Part shown: positions 7,101 to 31,837 of the stretch, piece after piece | Layout of the letters: each line of letters begins with the position of its first letter | Numbering within the stretch: the first letter of the stretch is position 1 | Assembly: GCA_014860115.1 (NCBI GenBank) | Contig: JACZKK010000167.1 | Coordinates: 1-42,219, forward strand | Direction of reading: 5' to 3' | DNA from: Ignavibacteriaceae bacterium | GTDB taxonomy: Bacteria; Bacteroidota; Ignavibacteria; Ignavibacteriales; Ignavibacteriaceae | Length of the DNA stretch: 42,219 bases | Made by a program: the position numbers and the translations under genes | Notes under the pieces: generated by a model | What the model was told of the DNA's origin: nothing | The model's database searches: none | The model's input: the letters and a program-made list of their open reading frames with translations, nothing else

Positions 7101-7458
7101 ACCCAATCCCGATCCGGGTGATCCACAATGGATTGAATCAAACATCCTTATTGTAGAAGTTGAAAATGAAAATAATAGGATCTTTGTTCCCAATTACTTT
7201 GCACTTATGCAGAACTATCCGAATCCATTCAACCCAATCACGGTGATAAAGTTCTCATTGCCGGAAGATGTAAGTAATGCGAAGCTATCTATCTACAATG
7301 CATTGGGAGAGAAGGTGGCAGAGTTAGTGAACACTGCATTGACAGCTGGAAAATATCAGTATCAATGGAATGCAAGTAAAGTTGCAACCGGAATTTATAT
7401 TTATGAACTGAGGGCTGACAAATTTGTATCAGTTAAAAAAATGATGTTGTTAAAATAA
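4147..7458 (+). CDS. Secreted GH85 endo-beta-N-acetylglucosaminidase with LamG-like domain and T9SS sorting domain
   Basis: 1103 aa. A signal peptide covers about residues 1-27 (cleavage after DINAQ). Residues about 50-400 match glycoside hydrolase family 85: YWFPLEILNW, GNVFFPP at 165-171, and FDGWFINQET, where N213 and E215 correspond to the catalytic Asn/Glu pair. GH85 enzymes cleave the chitobiose core of N-glycans. Beta-rich regions follow: a carbohydrate-binding-like segment (about 410-580), two FN3-like segments (about 585-770), and a LamG/concanavalin-like domain (about 775-960). The last 85 residues are a T9SS type A sorting domain (QNYPNPFNP). It is therefore probably exported across the outer membrane to act on glycoproteins outside the cell. 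It stands alone, divergent from xdhA. Confidence 0.88.
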   Translation: MSLSKFLQILALTYFLCEIFLSDINAQIEPINYSGNNEANFYSSDQPFASYWFPLEILNWSPSIDPDAPYNRSGVPLKNKYVDSITVVNPNARVNEAKVNPLSAFAPTSDNPSQGSLNINYYTFSYWQYVDQLVFWGGSAGEGLILAPNATIIDAAHRNGVKVLGNVFFPPIAYGGQFQWVNDFLQKNGNTFPVADKLIEVAEYYGFDGWFINQETAGGNSQTATNMRDFMIYFQKNSDLEIEWYDAMTENGNVSWQNQLNSLNDWYFQWGDTLVSETIFLNFWWNAAGLNNSRTLAQSLNRSEFELFAGIDVEANGYNSSITWSALFPNNLPHVTSLGIYRPDWCYNSSTNLANYYNKSSIFWVGWNHDPSNTTTTNNWKGIANYIPAFTPIIEIPFATNFCTGQGYDFYVNGEKLSYPELSADGWNNLSLQDVLPTWRWIVQSSGTRLTPEFDFTDAYYGGNCLKISGNLTSDNLIKLYKSNCLISSDTKLDISFKTGNVGSTNMKVGLAFYNDPSSFTYFDVGSTTTVDWDLKTIDLSAFNGQRIAVIALFFEGGFGSGYEIKLGRLRIYSGTIDVPNPPTNLYVENKVDESGFVTLRLRWDHSTSENYYYNIFRKNQDNSLTYLGGTSNNAYFVPFIKYEQGDSSVIIYVQSIGREFGESSYAETSFEWFSPPGIASNPSPENGDSSVVRNVTLEWTPGNGATSSDVYLGLTNPPPFLTNVSTNYFHSQLLDANTTYFWRIDSKNQYYTTEGNVWSFTTGASIADTSGFALQFDGIDDLLDCGNGSSLQITGNTISLEAWINVTEFKSQPFAGSVIVKDQGGIDAGYMIRCGGNGIINFNLGTGTWQEINSPANSVQLNNWHHIAATYDGINMKIYVDGAVTAEANRPGLSIANAVSENLFIGESPGFPGRVFNGKIDEVRIWDVARTQSQIQSTMNIMLSSEYYSSPDSGLIGYWRLDEGAGQTSEDLSYFANNATLGNSPNPDPGDPQWIESNILIVEVENENNRIFVPNYFALMQNYPNPFNPITVIKFSLPEDVSNAKLSIYNALGEKVAELVNTALTAGKYQYQWNASKVATGIYIYELRADKFVSVKKMMLLK

Positions 7459-15259: not shown

Positions 15260-16255
15260 ATGTTCTATAAATTTTCTCTATTTGGTCTCATATCTTTCTT
15301 TGTTCTGTTAATTTCTTCATTCTCACCAGCACAAAATAATTCTGTTATTTTATATGAAAATGATTTCGAATCATATACCGTAGGCGGACAACTAGCTTGC
15401 CAGGATACGATACACTGGAATACGTGGGAAGGCATTCCTTGTGATTGGATGGAAGACCCTCTAGTATCTAACAATAAAGCACATAGTGGCTCGAACTCAG
15501 TCTGGATACAACCATATAATGATCTCATAAAAATATTTCCAAAATATACCGCCGGAAAGTATAGTATAGAGTTCTATTTGTATATACCTTCGGGTTATAC
15601 CGGGAGTTGGTCACAGTTTGGGGTTTTTATTAACTCTGATTCAACAGAATGGGGCTTTATTGCAATGTTCGATCCATCCGGAAGTGGCAATATAGCTGCC
15701 GGTGGATGGGGTTCAGCGCAATTTTCTTTTTCTTACGATACATGGATGCACAATGAACTGATTGTAGATTTAAATTCAGATTGGGCTGAATATTATTTTG
15801 AAGGGAACCGGGTTCATAGCTGGCAATGGACACTTGGTGCTGGTGGTGACATAATACCTAATCAATTATCAGCGACGAATATAATGGGGTTTGACTTTCC
15901 AAATCCTATCGAGTTTGCACAATGGTATATGGATGATTATAAACTGGTGCGAATAGATACTACAGTTGGAGTAAATGATTTTTCTGTTCCTGAAAATTTT
16001 CAACTCTATCAAAACTACCCCAATCCCTTTAATCCTTCAACATCAATTAAGTTTGAAATTTCGGAACTAACTTTTGTTACATTGAAAGTATATGATGTTT
16101 TAGGGAATGAAGTTGCAATTCTTGTCAATGAAGAAAAACCGAGTGGTATTTATTCTGCTGAATTTAAAGCTACGGGAATGTCCAGCGGGATCTACTTCTA
16201 CAAGTTACAAGCAGGAGGATTCGTTAGTACTAAGAAAATGATATTAACAAAGTAA
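15260..16255 (+). CDS. Secreted T9SS cargo protein with jelly-roll-like domain
   Basis: About 331 aa from ATG 15260, chosen because GGGGGA lies at the right distance before it; an in-frame TTG at 15248 is less likely. A signal peptide ends near SFSPAQ. The mature part starts YENDFESYTVGGQLACQD and is a beta-rich domain (about 25-235) of the kind seen in Bacteroidota extracellular proteins, with many Trp and Tyr; sugar binding is a guess. The last 80 residues are a T9SS type A sorting domain (QNYPNPFNPSTSIKFEI and SSGIYFYKLQAGGF). It is monocistronic and followed by a strong terminator. No catalytic motif recognised. Confidence 0.8.
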   Translation: MFYKFSLFGLISFFVLLISSFSPAQNNSVILYENDFESYTVGGQLACQDTIHWNTWEGIPCDWMEDPLVSNNKAHSGSNSVWIQPYNDLIKIFPKYTAGKYSIEFYLYIPSGYTGSWSQFGVFINSDSTEWGFIAMFDPSGSGNIAAGGWGSAQFSFSYDTWMHNELIVDLNSDWAEYYFEGNRVHSWQWTLGAGGDIIPNQLSATNIMGFDFPNPIEFAQWYMDDYKLVRIDTTVGVNDFSVPENFQLYQNYPNPFNPSTSIKFEISELTFVTLKVYDVLGNEVAILVNEEKPSGIYSAEFKATGMSSGIYFYKLQAGGFVSTKKMILTK

Positions 16256-26103: not shown

Positions 26104-27288
26104 ATGAAACACTTTCACAAATTGCTTATTACTGCACTTATTGCATACGGCAGTATAAGTTTATTATTTGCACAATCGGAAGTTAATCCACCAATCACTG
26201 ATGATCCCTTTGTTCTGTTGGCAAATCCCGGTCCTTCAAACAACGGTGGATCGGCTGGATGGGCTATGTTTTTAAATCTCATCGCAGCTCCTACTCATCA
26301 AGTCACTATTTCAGCGATGACAACTGCAAGTGCTGCAGCGGCAAATGCCAGTTTTAATATTGAATTTTTTGTACGCCAGGGAAATGCATTAGGTGGACCA
26401 GTTGGCTCCGGCCCCGGAAGTTCATCTGTTGGATGGACTTCTCTTGGCATAGTTCCAGTAACACAGGGTCCAACCGCAAGCGGTGTTTCATTACTTTTTG
26501 CAACCCCTGTCATCACCATCAATCCGGGTGATACAACCGGAGTTGCTATGGTATTCACCGGTGCAGGTCCTCGCTATTTTGGAACAGGAACACCACCTTA
26601 TGAAATATATTCTAACACTGGTTTGACTCTGGTTACCGGAGATGTTCGCTCGGCACCCTTTACACCAAGCGGAAGTTTTTTTACCTCACGTGCACTCGTT
26701 GGTGAAGTTCATTATGACGCTGTTGTTCCTGTAGAACTAGCTTCATTTACTGCATCAGTTAATGAAAATGCTGTTGAGCTAAGCTGGATAACAGCTACAG
26801 AGGTAAACAATTCTGGATTTAATGTTGAAAGAAAAACCCAGAATACTGAATGGGATAATGTCGGTTTTGTTAAAGGACATGGAACAACCACTGAAACTCA
26901 GTCTTATTCTTTTATTGATAAAGATTTAAGTTCAGGTTCTTATTCATACAGACTGAAACAAGTAGACTTCGATGGGACATTCATGTATCACGAACTTGCA
27001 GAAACCATCGAAATAGGCTCAATAAAAACTTTTACTCTTCAACAGAATTACCCCAATCCGTTTAACCCAGCTACGACGATTATTTATCAACTGCCAACCG
27101 AAGGTCAGGTATCACTTAAGATTTACGATATGCTTGGCAACGAAGTAGCAACACTGGTTAACGAAATGAAAACCGCGGGTGAATATCAGGTTGACTTTAA
27201 TGCTGCTGCCCTATCAAGTGGAATTTACTTCTACAGATTACAGGCCGGCAATTTTGTAGAAACTAAGAGAATGATGTTGATGAAGTAA
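26104..27288 (+). CDS. Secreted T9SS cargo protein of unknown function
   Basis: 394 aa. The signal peptide is about residues 1-23 (SISLLFAQ). The N-terminal half (25-205) is low in charge, rich in Gly, Ser, Thr and Ala, and without a recognised family. Residues about 210-305 form an FN3-like module common in Bacteroidota T9SS proteins (PVELASFTASVNENAVELSW, NSGFNVERKT, YSYRLKQVDFDG). The last about 80 residues are the T9SS type A sorting domain (QQNYPNPFNPATTI, FNAAALSSGIYFYRL). It is monocistronic, with a terminator behind. No catalytic motif. Confidence 0.8.
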   Translation: MKHFHKLLITALIAYGSISLLFAQSEVNPPITDDPFVLLANPGPSNNGGSAGWAMFLNLIAAPTHQVTISAMTTASAAAANASFNIEFFVRQGNALGGPVGSGPGSSSVGWTSLGIVPVTQGPTASGVSLLFATPVITINPGDTTGVAMVFTGAGPRYFGTGTPPYEIYSNTGLTLVTGDVRSAPFTPSGSFFTSRALVGEVHYDAVVPVELASFTASVNENAVELSWITATEVNNSGFNVERKTQNTEWDNVGFVKGHGTTTETQSYSFIDKDLSSGSYSYRLKQVDFDGTFMYHELAETIEIGSIKTFTLQQNYPNPFNPATTIIYQLPTEGQVSLKIYDMLGNEVATLVNEMKTAGEYQVDFNAAALSSGIYFYRLQAGNFVETKRMMLMK

Positions 27289-27676: not shown

Positions 27677-30019
27677 ATGCAAAAGATTTATTTCTACTTC
27701 ATTCCTTTCTTTCTTTTCCTGGCTTCAAATATCTTTCCACAACCAGATACATTAACGATTCTGCACGTCAATGATTCACATTCAACTCTTGAGGCAATTG
27801 GGGCAAGAGATGCAAATCTTAAAGGAACTTTAGGCGGAGTTTCAAGAGTTGCAACTTTAGTGGGAATGACTAAAATGACAGAATCAAATGTTCTTTTCCT
27901 TCACGCAGGTGATATCTCTATCGGAGATATTTTCTTCAACAAAAATTTTCACGTTCCTGAACTTCAGATTCTTGATGCACTTGGTGTTGATGCAATGACA
28001 CTTGGCAATCACGAATTTGATTTGGGACCACTGGCTTTGTTAGGTTCATTACAGTATGCTTTCCCAACGGCAACAGATGCGTTCCCGATTTTAACAGCTA
28101 ATGTTGATTTTTCTGATCCGACAATCTCAGGTCTGGAAGACTATGTTGATACTTATACTGTTAAGGAGTTTGGTGATTTGAAAATTGGAATATTTGGTTT
28201 AACAACTCCAGCTACAAACTTGCTTTCAAATCCTTACCCGGCAGTAGTAAGCGAAGACATCGTTAACATTGCCGCAACAATGGTCGGAACTTTACGCACT
28301 GTAGAAAATTGTGATGTTGTAATTCTACTTTCTCATCTTGGAGTTAATTTTGATCAGCTAATTGTCAGTTATGTTCCGGGAATAAACGTAATTGTTGGTG
28401 GACATGATCATTATATGTATGAAGAACCAATAACTATGATCGATCCAATGGGCGGAACGACGTGGATTGTTCAAGCAAAATCAAATTATATGTACGCCGG
28501 TAAGATGAAACTGGTTGTTGATGGTGTAAATGTTCAATTGCTTGACTATCAGCTAATTCCAATTGATACAAACATTCCGCAAGAGCCATCTGTGCAGGGA
28601 ATGGTAGATTATTTAATTACGGACATAGAAAATTTCTACTCAATTCCTTTTTATACTCAGCAGATGGGCTACGCAAGTTCATTCTTTGCAGAAGAGACAA
28701 AAGATTTGTTAGCGCTTGGTGTGCATGACACTCCATTGGGAAATTTAGTTGCCGATGCTTTTCGTTTTAAAACATCAACGAATGTTGCACTTCAAGCCGG
28801 AGGATCGATTGCTCTTCCACTGTGGGAAGGCGCATTTACTCCGGGTGATTTATTCAGAACTAATGGTTATGGATTTAACCTGGTGAACACTCTTGGATTC
28901 CAGCTTGCAACTTTTGATTTAAGCGGAATGGATATTCTAACAGGACTTACATTCGGTCTTTCTGAAATAGAATTGAATGATGAATTCTTACTCCAGGTTT
29001 CCGGGATGGAATATACTTATGATGGAACGAAGCCTGCAGAAGAAAGATTAGTTTCAGTTAATATTAACGGAATGCCGATCGATCCTGCTGCAACTTACTC
29101 AGTTACAACAAATGAAATGGTTTTAGGAATTCTTGATTACATTGGAATTATTCCCTCAAACATTACCATTCTTCAGGGAATTACAGAATTTCAGGCATTA
29201 TCTGAATATGTAATGAGTCAAGATAATTTCATTCAGCCAAAAACGTTGGGTAGAGTCTTAAATGTTGGAAACAGAGAAGCAAGAAGCACAGTTATAGGCG
29301 CAGGATGGATGGATTCTCCTCAGGGTTCTTATCAACCCAATAAATTATTATGTGATAAATTATTCTTCGAATTTCATATGATGGATCGCGGTTTTAATTA
29401 CGATCCAACTGGTAAAGTTACAATCCGATATCCTCAGGCAAATTTCACTTTTAAAAGTAATGTGTGTAACTGGCTGCTTTTAGAAAACCAGACTGCAACC
29501 CTCAGAGGTAAAGGAAAAATTAATAACCAAGGTAACTTTGGATTTTTGCTGATCGTCGAAGACTCACCTGATAAACTTAGAATTGTAATCTGGGATAAAA
29601 ATGATGGAGATAGAATAGTTTATGATAATCTCAATCCGCAAAGCATTCACGGTGCTATCGTAATGCACAACAGATGTGTATTTGCTAAGGAAGGTGATGA
29701 TGAAATATTAACTACTCCTATTGAGTTTGCACTCGAACAGAATTATCCAAATCCTTTCAATCCATCAACAATAATAAATTATTCAATACCTGAAGCAGGA
29801 AAAGTTGAGCTGAAGGTCTGTGACATACTTGGGAATGAAGTTGCAACTCTTGTTGATGAATATAAAACAGAAGGAAAATATGAAGTAGAATTTAACAGTC
29901 ATTCCGGCGAAGTCCGGAACCTGCCTACCGGTAGGCAAGGTCTGACAAGCGGAGTTTACATTTATACATTAAGAACAAACAATTTTGTTCAGACGAAGAA
30001 GATGATACTTATTAAGTAA
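27677..30019 (+). CDS. Secreted 5'-nucleotidase (UshA family) with T9SS sorting domain
   Basis: 780 aa. A signal peptide covers about residues 1-22 (NIFPQ). The metallophosphatase domain has HVNDSH (D33, H35), HAGDI (D79), GNHEFD (N111, H112), LLSHLG (H220) and GGHDHY (243, 245). The 5'-nucleotidase C-terminal substrate domain covers about 340-525. A beta-rich stretch of unknown family (540-690) precedes a T9SS type A sorting domain (EQNYPNPFNPSTII). It likely releases phosphate and nucleosides from extracellular nucleotides at the cell surface. The sorting domain carries an in-frame palindromic insertion encoding HSGEVRNLPTGRQG. GGAGG precedes the start, and upstream repeats suggest phosphate control. 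Confidence 0.9.
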   Translation: MQKIYFYFIPFFLFLASNIFPQPDTLTILHVNDSHSTLEAIGARDANLKGTLGGVSRVATLVGMTKMTESNVLFLHAGDISIGDIFFNKNFHVPELQILDALGVDAMTLGNHEFDLGPLALLGSLQYAFPTATDAFPILTANVDFSDPTISGLEDYVDTYTVKEFGDLKIGIFGLTTPATNLLSNPYPAVVSEDIVNIAATMVGTLRTVENCDVVILLSHLGVNFDQLIVSYVPGINVIVGGHDHYMYEEPITMIDPMGGTTWIVQAKSNYMYAGKMKLVVDGVNVQLLDYQLIPIDTNIPQEPSVQGMVDYLITDIENFYSIPFYTQQMGYASSFFAEETKDLLALGVHDTPLGNLVADAFRFKTSTNVALQAGGSIALPLWEGAFTPGDLFRTNGYGFNLVNTLGFQLATFDLSGMDILTGLTFGLSEIELNDEFLLQVSGMEYTYDGTKPAEERLVSVNINGMPIDPAATYSVTTNEMVLGILDYIGIIPSNITILQGITEFQALSEYVMSQDNFIQPKTLGRVLNVGNREARSTVIGAGWMDSPQGSYQPNKLLCDKLFFEFHMMDRGFNYDPTGKVTIRYPQANFTFKSNVCNWLLLENQTATLRGKGKINNQGNFGFLLIVEDSPDKLRIVIWDKNDGDRIVYDNLNPQSIHGAIVMHNRCVFAKEGDDEILTTPIEFALEQNYPNPFNPSTIINYSIPEAGKVELKVCDILGNEVATLVDEYKTEGKYEVEFNSHSGEVRNLPTGRQGLTSGVYIYTLRTNNFVQTKKMILIK
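29902..29937 (+). repeat. Two palindromic elements inside the nucleotidase sorting domain
   Basis: TTCCGG-cgaagt-CCGGAA at 29902-29919 is followed by the perfect 16-bp palindrome TGCCTACCGGTAGGCA at 29922-29937. The frame stays open. They encode extra residues in a loop that is short in the other sorting domains here. The LPTGRQ peptide encoded by the second one is, from memory, a recurrent insert in Bacteroidota-like metagenome proteins. Confidence 0.75.
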
Positions 30020-30085: not shown

Positions 30086-31837
30086 ATGAAACTTAAAATT
30101 TTAGCAATTGTTTTAATTCTTTTCTGCTGGGTAGATCTATTCCCACAAAAAGTGGGTGATGCTTATGCATTGGATATTAATAATATCTATATGCCATTGA
30201 ACAGAAAAGGTGTTCTTGCAGATGTTAACGTCCCGCCTAATGGTACAGGAGGTCAGTTTGGAGGACACACATTTCTCTTTTCTGGGGGATTCTTTTTAAG
30301 CGGTTACAGCAACGGAGTTTTATGGGCAAATGCTGTTGCTTCAGCTACACTAGTTGAAGATTATTTGCCGGGAACAGTCGGATTTCCCAATAATCCGGAT
30401 GCTCAATTGTATAAGATCAGAATTGACGATACTCCTTTTGGATTAAGTTGGCAGGATTGGAATGATGCTGTATCCCTTGGTGCAGATTTTTATGATGGAG
30501 ATGGGGATGGTATTTACAATCCTGTTGACAAGAACGTTAATGGAATTTGGGATCCTGATGAAGACTGTCCCGATCTTCTAGGCGATGAAATGCTGTGGTG
30601 TGTATTTCATGACGGATTACCAGTTGCTCAAAGGAGATGGAATACAACGATTGAGGTTGGGGTTGAAGTTCGTCAAACAGTTTTTGCTTATTCCAGTATT
30701 TCCGAGTTGCAGAACATTATCTTTATCAGATACCGAATTAAATACGTCGGACTAACACCCTCTGATCCTGATATTTTGACGGATGTTTATTTCGGTGTTT
30801 GGGGAGATCCCGATCTAGGCACCAGCAATAATGACCTGGTTGGCTGCGATACTATGTTAACTGGTCAGTACACCTATAATTGGTATTCAGATCCGATCTA
30901 TGGCAACAATCCACCAAGCTTCTTTGTAAAAAATTTGAATGGACCTGCCACGTATATACCCGGAGTTACTTTTGTAGACAATAATGGTAATGGTATTTAC
31001 GACGAAGGAATTGATACACCAATTGATACTGCTTACGTTCATCGCGGACAAGTTATCGGAGTAAAAATATACCCTGGCGCAACTAACCAAAATCTTTCTT
31101 CAGCTATTGGATATATAAATGGTGACGTAAATTTAAATGATCCAAACAGTAAGGATGAAGCACGAAATTATATGCTTGGCCTTACAAGACTTGGAGACGT
31201 AGTTGACCCTTGCACATGGCTATATGGAACAGTTCAGGGTGGTGTAGATTGTTCTCAAATCAATCCTATGTTTTGGTACTCCGGTGATAGGGTGAACAAT
31301 TATGGGTGGATAAATAATACACCCAGAGATCAAAGACAATTACTGAATGTTGGTCCGTTTACTCTTTTAAAAGACAAAGAATATGAAGTATTTGTAGCTT
31401 ATAGTGTTGGACAAGGTACTGATTGGCTGACATCAATAACAGAATCAAAAAACATCGCAGGAATAGCAGGAGTTTTATACGAATCAAACTTTGATACATT
31501 ATCTGTGTTATCAGTTGAGGAAATACATTCTGGTAATATTCCTGAAGAATATTATCTCTCACAGAATTATCCTAATCCTTTTAATCCCATTACGACCATA
31601 GAATTCTCAATTCCTGAAGAGGGGCTAGTATCTTTAGTGATCTATGATCTGCTGGGAAATGAGGTAACAACATTAGTAAACGAAAATCTTAAAGCGGGAA
31701 CTTATAAAACAGAATTCTCCGCCAAAGGCGGATCCGTTTCTGGCGGAAATGCTATCAACCTTCCGAGCGGCGTGTATTTCTATACTTTGAAAACAGAAAA
31801 CTTTATCCAAACTAAAAAAATGATATTACTTAAATAA
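30086..31837 (+). CDS. Secreted T9SS cargo protein with EF-hand-like calcium motifs
   Basis: 583 aa. A signal peptide ends near WVDLFPQ. The mature protein contains Asp-rich calcium-loop motifs DGDGDGIYNPVDKNVNG and DNNGNGIYDEGID, like those of thrombospondin type 3 or dockerin loops, set in a large beta-rich region without a recognised catalytic family. The end is a T9SS type A sorting domain (SQNYPNPFNPITTIEFS). Between EFSA and INLPSGVYFY it carries ten extra residues from a 30-bp palindromic insertion; without it the sequence would read EFNAINLPSG, a normal sorting domain. The terminator behind the nucleotidase gene suggests its own transcript. Surface or adhesive role is a guess. Confidence 0.82.
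   Translation: MKLKILAIVLILFCWVDLFPQKVGDAYALDINNIYMPLNRKGVLADVNVPPNGTGGQFGGHTFLFSGGFFLSGYSNGVLWANAVASATLVEDYLPGTVGFPNNPDAQLYKIRIDDTPFGLSWQDWNDAVSLGADFYDGDGDGIYNPVDKNVNGIWDPDEDCPDLLGDEMLWCVFHDGLPVAQRRWNTTIEVGVEVRQTVFAYSSISELQNIIFIRYRIKYVGLTPSDPDILTDVYFGVWGDPDLGTSNNDLVGCDTMLTGQYTYNWYSDPIYGNNPPSFFVKNLNGPATYIPGVTFVDNNGNGIYDEGIDTPIDTAYVHRGQVIGVKIYPGATNQNLSSAIGYINGDVNLNDPNSKDEARNYMLGLTRLGDVVDPCTWLYGTVQGGVDCSQINPMFWYSGDRVNNYGWINNTPRDQRQLLNVGPFTLLKDKEYEVFVAYSVGQGTDWLTSITESKNIAGIAGVLYESNFDTLSVLSVEEIHSGNIPEEYYLSQNYPNPFNPITTIEFSIPEEGLVSLVIYDLLGNEVTTLVNENLKAGTYKTEFSAKGGSVSGGNAINLPSGVYFYTLKTENFIQTKKMILLK
31718..31747 (+). repeat. 30-bp double palindrome inserted in frame
   Basis: Two 15-bp units in tandem: TCCGCCAAAGGCGGA (perfect 6-bp arms) and TCCGTTTCTGGCGGA (related, degenerate centre). 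The total is 30 bp, exactly ten codons. Removing it joins GAATTC to AATGCTATCAACCTT and restores the canonical FNAINLPSG loop. Confidence 0.8.

Follow-up and report, generated by a model that had tools for sequence, protein, structure and literature searches.

Among the closest described counterparts of the elements reported here are Rickettsia palindromic elements (RPEs), which are palindromic inserts read as parts of proteins, and REPINs or RAYT-mobilised REPs, i.e. paired short palindromes that travel together. Intragenic REPs of the GTAG and CGTC super-families encode peptides, and Di Nocera et al. 2013 (PMC3733652) report one shared site, in recB of two Xanthomonas. As defined there, CGTC REPs harbour a CGTC tag (often TGTC or CCTC), an 8-9 bp stem starting with AT, a loop of 4-5 nt and an unpaired 3-nt tail, mostly CCA. 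The paper also describes RAYT genes flanked by their matching REPs, and CGTC repeats without a dedicated transposase (PMC3733652).

We analysed a stretch of 42,219 nucleotides, hereafter the window, which is contig C8 of an Ignavibacteriales-like genome of 222 contigs and 3.93 Mb. Different palindromes lie in the corresponding loop of the C-terminal sorting domains (CTDs) of two adjacent genes of the window.

Palindromes in the sorting domains of two adjacent genes

The nearest named homologues of the 5'-nucleotidase, at 76% and 75% identity over the best segment, both belong to Ignavibacteriales MAGs. The features of the window are as follows.

27677..30019, + strand: 5'-nucleotidase precursor (Metallophos, 5_nucleotid_C and C-terminal Por_Secre_tail), from profile matches and ORF
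29741..30016, + strand: T9SS type A-like CTD of the 5'-nucleotidase (PF18962, predicted six-strand sandwich)
29898..29943, + strand: 46-bp composite unit GTCATT...TCT (GTCATT-hairpin A, AA, B, TCT) in the beta4-beta5 loop, edges from the comparison of copies
29898..29919, + strand: palindrome A, GTCATTCCGG-cgaagt-CCGGAA, GTCATT-type, CGTC-REP-like
29920..29940, + strand: palindrome B, CC-TGCCTACCGGTAGGCA-AGG, 21 bp, with the core TGCCTACCGGTAGGCA at 29922-29937
30086..31837, + strand: putative secreted protein, neighbour gene, with its own CTD at 31565-31834
31718..31747, + strand: palindrome C, TCCGCCAAAGGCGGA (31718-31732) and a decayed second copy, same loop of the neighbour CTD
7213..7455, + strand: comparison CTD, loops of usual length
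16013..16252, + strand: comparison CTD, loops of usual length
27046..27285, + strand: comparison CTD, loops of usual length

The profile matches and the predicted Ig-like sandwich identify T9SS type A domains (PF18962). In the profile search P0002 scores 32.4 bits, above the cut-off of 27, and P0001, the CTD of the 5'-nucleotidase, 26.1 bits, slightly below it. The CTD matches 8glj_D, a Por sorting domain, in the PDB by sequence. Foldseek with the CTD model returned nothing at E <= 0.001; 8qb1, a T9SS-related CTD, and 8gl8_D, a T9SS translocon chain, rank 13 and 40 amid many Ig-like folds. The predicted model (64 CTDs from the window and its genome; mean pLDDT 84.9) has strands at residues 9-16, 20-28, 33-42, 45-52, 71-78 and 83-90. 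The insert falls in the long coil of residues 53-70, which links the fourth of these strands to the fifth, and the insert block has the lowest model confidence outside residues 1-10. A review (PMC10202324) describes the type A CTD as an Ig-like fold that displays the conserved residues of its motifs A, B, D and E on the surface. The inserts appear to keep clear of these four motifs.

The preliminary description had located two palindromes at 29902-29937 in the tail of the 5'-nucleotidase, and both are indeed read there. The A hairpin consists of TTCCGG (29902-29907), a cgaagt loop (29908-29913) and CCGGAA (29914-29919). The translated loop with its insert is F-NSHSGEVRNLPTGRQGLTSG, a net gain of 12 residues over the usual 8-residue loop, in agreement with the insert of roughly 12 residues proposed initially. 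Excising 15 and 21 bp does yield FNSHNLTSG, as was also proposed, but the comparison of copies gives a real unit of 46 bp, from 29898 to 29943. Likewise, the adjacent genes do carry different palindromes in the corresponding loop, A and B in one CTD and TCCGCCAAAGGCGGA in the other. Fuller double copies of palindrome C were found in L042 and L080.

A and B form repeat families

With up to two mismatches TGCCTNCCGGNAGGCA (B) occurs once in the window, against 0.05 expected. Allowing one mismatch, we found it at 11 places of the genome, and TCATTCCGGNNNNNNCCGGAA (A) at 20 distinct places in 21 rows, one place being matched on both strands; the reversed controls gave 0 for both. These genome-wide counts and the expectation for the window exclude a chance palindrome.

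Thirteen of the 20 A places are beta4-beta5 loops of CTDs (contigs C8, C12, C33, C43, C63, C67, C95, C104, C105, C149, C168, C195 and C211), and the remaining seven are outside CTD loops, which make up well under 1% of the genome. The C149 CTD ends at the contig edge and was assigned from its flanks, and the A copies of C95 and C211 are degenerate. The A stem, ATTCCGG, has 7 bp, with a loop mostly of 6 nt (5 nt in two copies) and a tail that is mostly CTG or CTA, and once CCG. The copies begin with NGTC, mostly AGTC in CTD loops and TGTC in several places outside. All 16 GTCATT-type copies read in the beta4-beta5 loops of this genome share one orientation, and 14 of 15 A rows have AATCT or its B-split form as right junction. 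As A departs from the CGTC definition in stem and loop (7 bp, 6 nt) and in the CCA tail, we call it CGTC-like only. The L045 unit ATTCCCGC-gaaa, found in the same loop, conforms to the CGTC rule for stem and loop.

Inserts cluster in specific CTD loops

We surveyed 80 stretches of the genome together with the window, i.e. 1.13 Mb containing 132 CTDs. Some stretches surround A, B or listed CTDs (150 of the 282 candidates in the genome were scored), and 40 come from contigs picked by number, a few of them near listed CTDs. CTDs were detected by a PNPF-to-stop pattern and genes called by a simple ORF rule, and six and seven of the 132 CTDs were unreadable for the beta4-beta5 loop (loop 1) and the beta1-beta2 loop (loop 2), respectively. 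Palindromes were assigned to families with patterns of our own making, which miss degenerate copies and read the GTCATT-type on the coding strand only; no GTCATT-type unit was found on the non-coding strand of loop 1 in this survey.

In loop 1, 26 of 126 CTDs have a palindrome of some family (GTCATT-type, 12; GTCATT-type plus B, 4; B alone, 2; CCGCC, 6; GTAG-tagged, 2), 88 have the usual length and 12 have another length without an assigned palindrome. The latter include the 12-residue loops NTSAIKHLPSSG, NASSFKHFPSSG and NTSSINHHPSSG and loops of the NANDxxG/WDG kind. In loop 2, 19 of 125 have a palindrome (GTCATT-type, 7; CTTCGA..CTGAGC, 8; GTAG, 3; another hairpin, 1) and two inserts are unassigned. 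The 58 stretches picked without regard to A or B gave 7 of 81 for loop 1 and 5 of 79 for loop 2. The beta5-beta6 loop (loop 3) has a B-like palindrome in L040 and longer GC-rich inserts in L028, L023 and L041. Between loops 1 and 2, the segment with the two tight turns, which runs from beta2 up to the turn preceding beta4, contains no palindrome in the surveyed CTDs. It has 23 residues in 116 of 120 rows and 22, 24, 24 and 18 in the others, the last probably a misreading, and is thus never more than one residue longer.

The expectation that inserts would gather in the loop of the sorting domain rather than scatter at random through coding sequence is therefore borne out in this sample: they concentrate in the beta4-beta5 loop and belong to several unrelated families. 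This is not exclusive, as two other CTD loops and other proteins also take inserts. In L035 (2900-3560), GTCATT-type and B-like palindromes follow one another before a conserved-looking motif of an ORF that resembles a glycosyltransferase by eye. An 850-aa ORF of L024 that ends in a CTD has, at 15326 and outside that CTD, a palindrome of the GTCATTCTGAG type that is read in reverse as EILRFTQND. Hairpins of the GTCATT-type, ATTGC or GATCCTC kinds with B-like or CCGCC-like palindromes nested in them were observed at L075:231-518, L019:16673, L033:13798-13950, L038:9769 and L007:946-966.

Density against the genomic background

Hairpins whose arms reach 7 bp or more were counted in the stretches picked without regard to A or B. 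They number 3 in 2,400 b of loop 1 (1.25/kb), 76 in 90,323 b outside ORFs (0.84/kb) and 35 in 631,875 b of other coding sequence (0.055/kb). Loop 1 differs from other coding sequence (Fisher P 4e-4), also in the 40 number-picked stretches alone (2 in 855 b versus 19 in 395,358 b, P 0.001). To these elements, loop 1 thus resembles non-coding DNA. In the same stretches not chosen by A or B, we counted 12 GTCATT-type units in 90 kb of intergenic DNA, 4 in 21.7 kb of CTDs and 5 in 632 kb of other coding sequence, four of the latter being AT-rich and likely due to chance. By one rule, the loops, about 7.2 kb in all, contain 4 units where the intergenic rate predicts 0.96 (P 0.016); this small, approximate comparison rests on rough loop lengths. 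The preliminary description had called the loop a tolerated or preferred landing site. Tolerance is well supported, and preference only partly so: the number of units is small, copying between paralogues may contribute, and two other loops and other proteins receive inserts as well.

The unit in related genomes

Four distinct nucleotidase homologues (L091, L092, L094 and the partial gene of L175) have an empty loop 1 of the usual 8 residues; L092 and L171 are one genome. The homologue of Ignavibacterium sp. bin94 (L093) has a different palindrome in this loop, GGGTTTGAT-tc-ATCAAACCC, behind GTAG. L095 ends before the CTD. The similarity of L173 and L174 to the nucleotidase is limited to roughly its first 528 residues, so they were excluded as homologues; the CTD of the former is empty and that of the latter contains A'+B. 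Among 100 CTDs of named relatives, gathered by similarity to P0001 and not randomly, palindrome families are present in 11 of 98 readable loops 1 and at least 7 of 97 loops 2, several VIARSEATRQS-like inserts in loop 2 being left unassigned by the patterns.

Of 79 genomes, that of the window included, 33 contain B, 19 contain A and 73 contain Y1_Tnp. The congener G002, a single contig of 3.86 Mb, has 11 A places: five in loop 1, three in loop 2, two in a different repeated domain, present in two ORFs, and one outside ORFs of 150 aa. Eight of its 17 B places are in loop 1. B is also found in frame inside G002 ORFs that resemble, by eye, valyl-tRNA synthetase and ABC-F proteins (L187:4878 and L192:2056), and GTCATT-type palindromes occupy an apparent loop of a fibronectin-like domain in two ORFs (L181:2062 and 3542; TYSFIT[SHSGLTGI]SSNELSV).

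Six G002 CTDs harbour a 46-bp unit in which B sits at the junction known from the window but the stem differs, being GTCATTCTGA-cgaagg-TCAGAA (with a single change in one copy). Identity among the six is 99.3% inside the unit, 77.5% in the 45 bases to its left and 61.5% to its right, and this sharp drop at the edges indicates a discrete mobile unit. Only three of the 79 genomes, all congeneric, show the A+B junction pattern, at 10 places in total. Nine of these are A+B units in CTD loops, and at the tenth, in a G003 ORF resembling a membrane protein, B stands without A; no such junction was found outside ORFs in the 79 genomes. This concentration in CTD loops is more than tolerance alone predicts.

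RAYT-like genes and GTAG-tagged hairpins

The preliminary description had proposed to look for a RAYT-like transposase gene elsewhere. Four RAYT-like (Y1_Tnp) genes exist, none with an evident link to A or B. Those of L009 and L010 are flanked on both sides by GTAG-tagged hairpins in a REPtron-like arrangement (L009:1330-1925, L010:1301-2358), and the GTAG stems differ from those found in CTDs. The L007 gene has a single GTAG hairpin at a distance of about 1 kb; L007 also contains a B-like palindrome and a CTD in which the peptide RTHSGEVRNL is A-like. Other palindromes adjoin the L008 gene. None of the four genes has an intact A next to it, which is in line with the CGTC repeats described without a dedicated transposase in PMC3733652.

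GTAG hairpins are enriched in the surveyed 1.13 Mb: they give 22 rows, in which four perfect palindromes count on both strands, against 0-10 for 14 other tetramers and 18 for GTCA. Inserts of both loops 1 and 2 include GTAG-tagged ones, and in L031, L040, L018 and L042 GTAG adjoins a stem of 5-13 bp, as in GTAG REPs. A GTAG-stem pattern had no match in the genome of the window and one place in a relative, its reversed control also giving 1. Across the 79 genomes, with kinship ignored, Y1_Tnp counts correlate weakly with those of B (Spearman 0.28, P 0.012) and not with those of A (0.17, P 0.14).

Discussion

We consider it likely that REP-class units survive in frame in CTD loops by tolerance. 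Short REP-class palindromic units (A, B, C and the GTAG-tagged hairpins) would move as pieces of about 15-50 bp, the GTAG-tagged ones possibly by single-strand transposition of the Y1/HUH, RAYT type, and their landings in most coding sequence would be purged by selection. The beta4-beta5 and beta1-beta2 loops, and rarely the beta5-beta6 loop, of numerous T9SS CTDs would accept additional residues without harm to the fold, so that in-frame insertions would survive and persist there with the conserved strands unharmed. The repeat families, their clustering in particular loops, the empty and differently filled homologues and the sharp edges of one unit are observed directly, whereas survival by tolerance is inferred from them. 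Tolerance accounts for most observations, and some targeting or copying among paralogues is possible in addition.

A few original insertions might instead have spread among CTD paralogues by ectopic recombination or CTD duplication, which we regard as unlikely. The confinement of the A+B junction to three congeneric genomes, almost always in CTD loops, speaks for copying, as does a tree of 120 of the 132 CTDs, which does not include the 5'-nucleotidase CTD. On this tree the 14 A rows are slightly clustered, yet scattered: the A label takes at least 11 changes, whereas 178 of 200 shuffles take 13-14 and two need 11. Pairs of A-bearing CTDs are also closer than pairs of empty ones to the left of the insert (identity 0.661 versus 0.521) and in the middle segment (0.744 versus 0.610), probably because A-bearing CTDs form a more uniform subgroup; in the right flank they are not (0.630 versus 0.627). 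Several unrelated families in one loop and differences in phase (HSGEVRNL versus SSFRLFRNL) rule out a single copied insert. Homologues that fill the same loop differently also argue against copying, as does the abrupt change of identity where the unit begins and ends in six CTDs. For the A+B unit, transfer from CTD to CTD is possible, but then without flanks.

In L016, three CTDs (14434, 17366 and 19671) share a loop-2 insert, and their loops 1 contain A+B, B alone and no palindrome. These CTDs cluster on the tree (support 92, not starred), as expected from copying; as they differ in loop 1 and share loop 2, loop 1 probably changed after duplication.

A stronger version of mobility would make the CTD loops a genomic safe harbour, which REP-class units including the 46-bp double palindrome enter preferentially, spreading by their own movement through at least 150 paralogues. 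We hold this version to be doubtful; if true, it would represent protein-coding mobile palindromes that diversify a secretion signal.

More doubtful still is a sequence- or structure-guided enzyme that directs the units to the loops. It would fit the excess of GTCATT-type units over the intergenic rate by one rule, the single orientation and near-constant AATCT or B-split junction of loop-1 copies, and the presence of B and C within the hairpin loops of other palindromes. Nevertheless, the families differ in their junctions, three different loops and other proteins are also hit, and the three loop-2 A copies of G002 are oriented oppositely. We rejected a target-sequence idea (AGT|AATCT in the canonical loop), as none of the 88 empty loops holds AGTAATCT; ten hold AATCT.

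It is very improbable that the inserts are kept for a function, be it to form an mRNA hairpin close to the 3' end or to alter the surface of the CTD. In favour of a function, the hairpins are rich in GC although the window has 36% GC, and the insert of the window folds at -17.7 kcal/mol (RNA parameters, no shuffled control), but most paralogues and four of the five compared homologues have no insert, families and peptides vary, and some copies look decayed.

Many natural insertions of unrelated palindromes at one structural position can help to separate selection from targeting. They bound the size and edges of the units and map the loops of the T9SS signal that are free to change. A caution for annotation is that REPs can be the source of peptides such as LPAGRQ or HSGEVRNL in predicted proteins.

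Compared with known systems, RPEs belong to another phylum, and their descriptions, as far as accessible, report no preference for one domain loop. Unlike REPINs, the A+B unit joins two different palindromes and has no transposase tied to it. With the intragenic REPs of PMC3733652 the present elements share short tagged palindromes inside ORFs, GTAG tags and RAYT-like genes. The stem and loop of A, of 7 bp and 6 nt, fall outside the 8-9 bp and 4-5 nt given there. The hosts of those REPs are varied, many acting in DNA synthesis or repair, whereas here the families converge on the loops of one domain. REPs in T9SS sorting domains are not reported, nor the insert peptides mentioned, in the literature covered, which leaves out most subscription journals. 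Intragenic REPs as such are known; what is new is a loop hotspot to which several unrelated families return, both in this genome and in MAGs of relatives.
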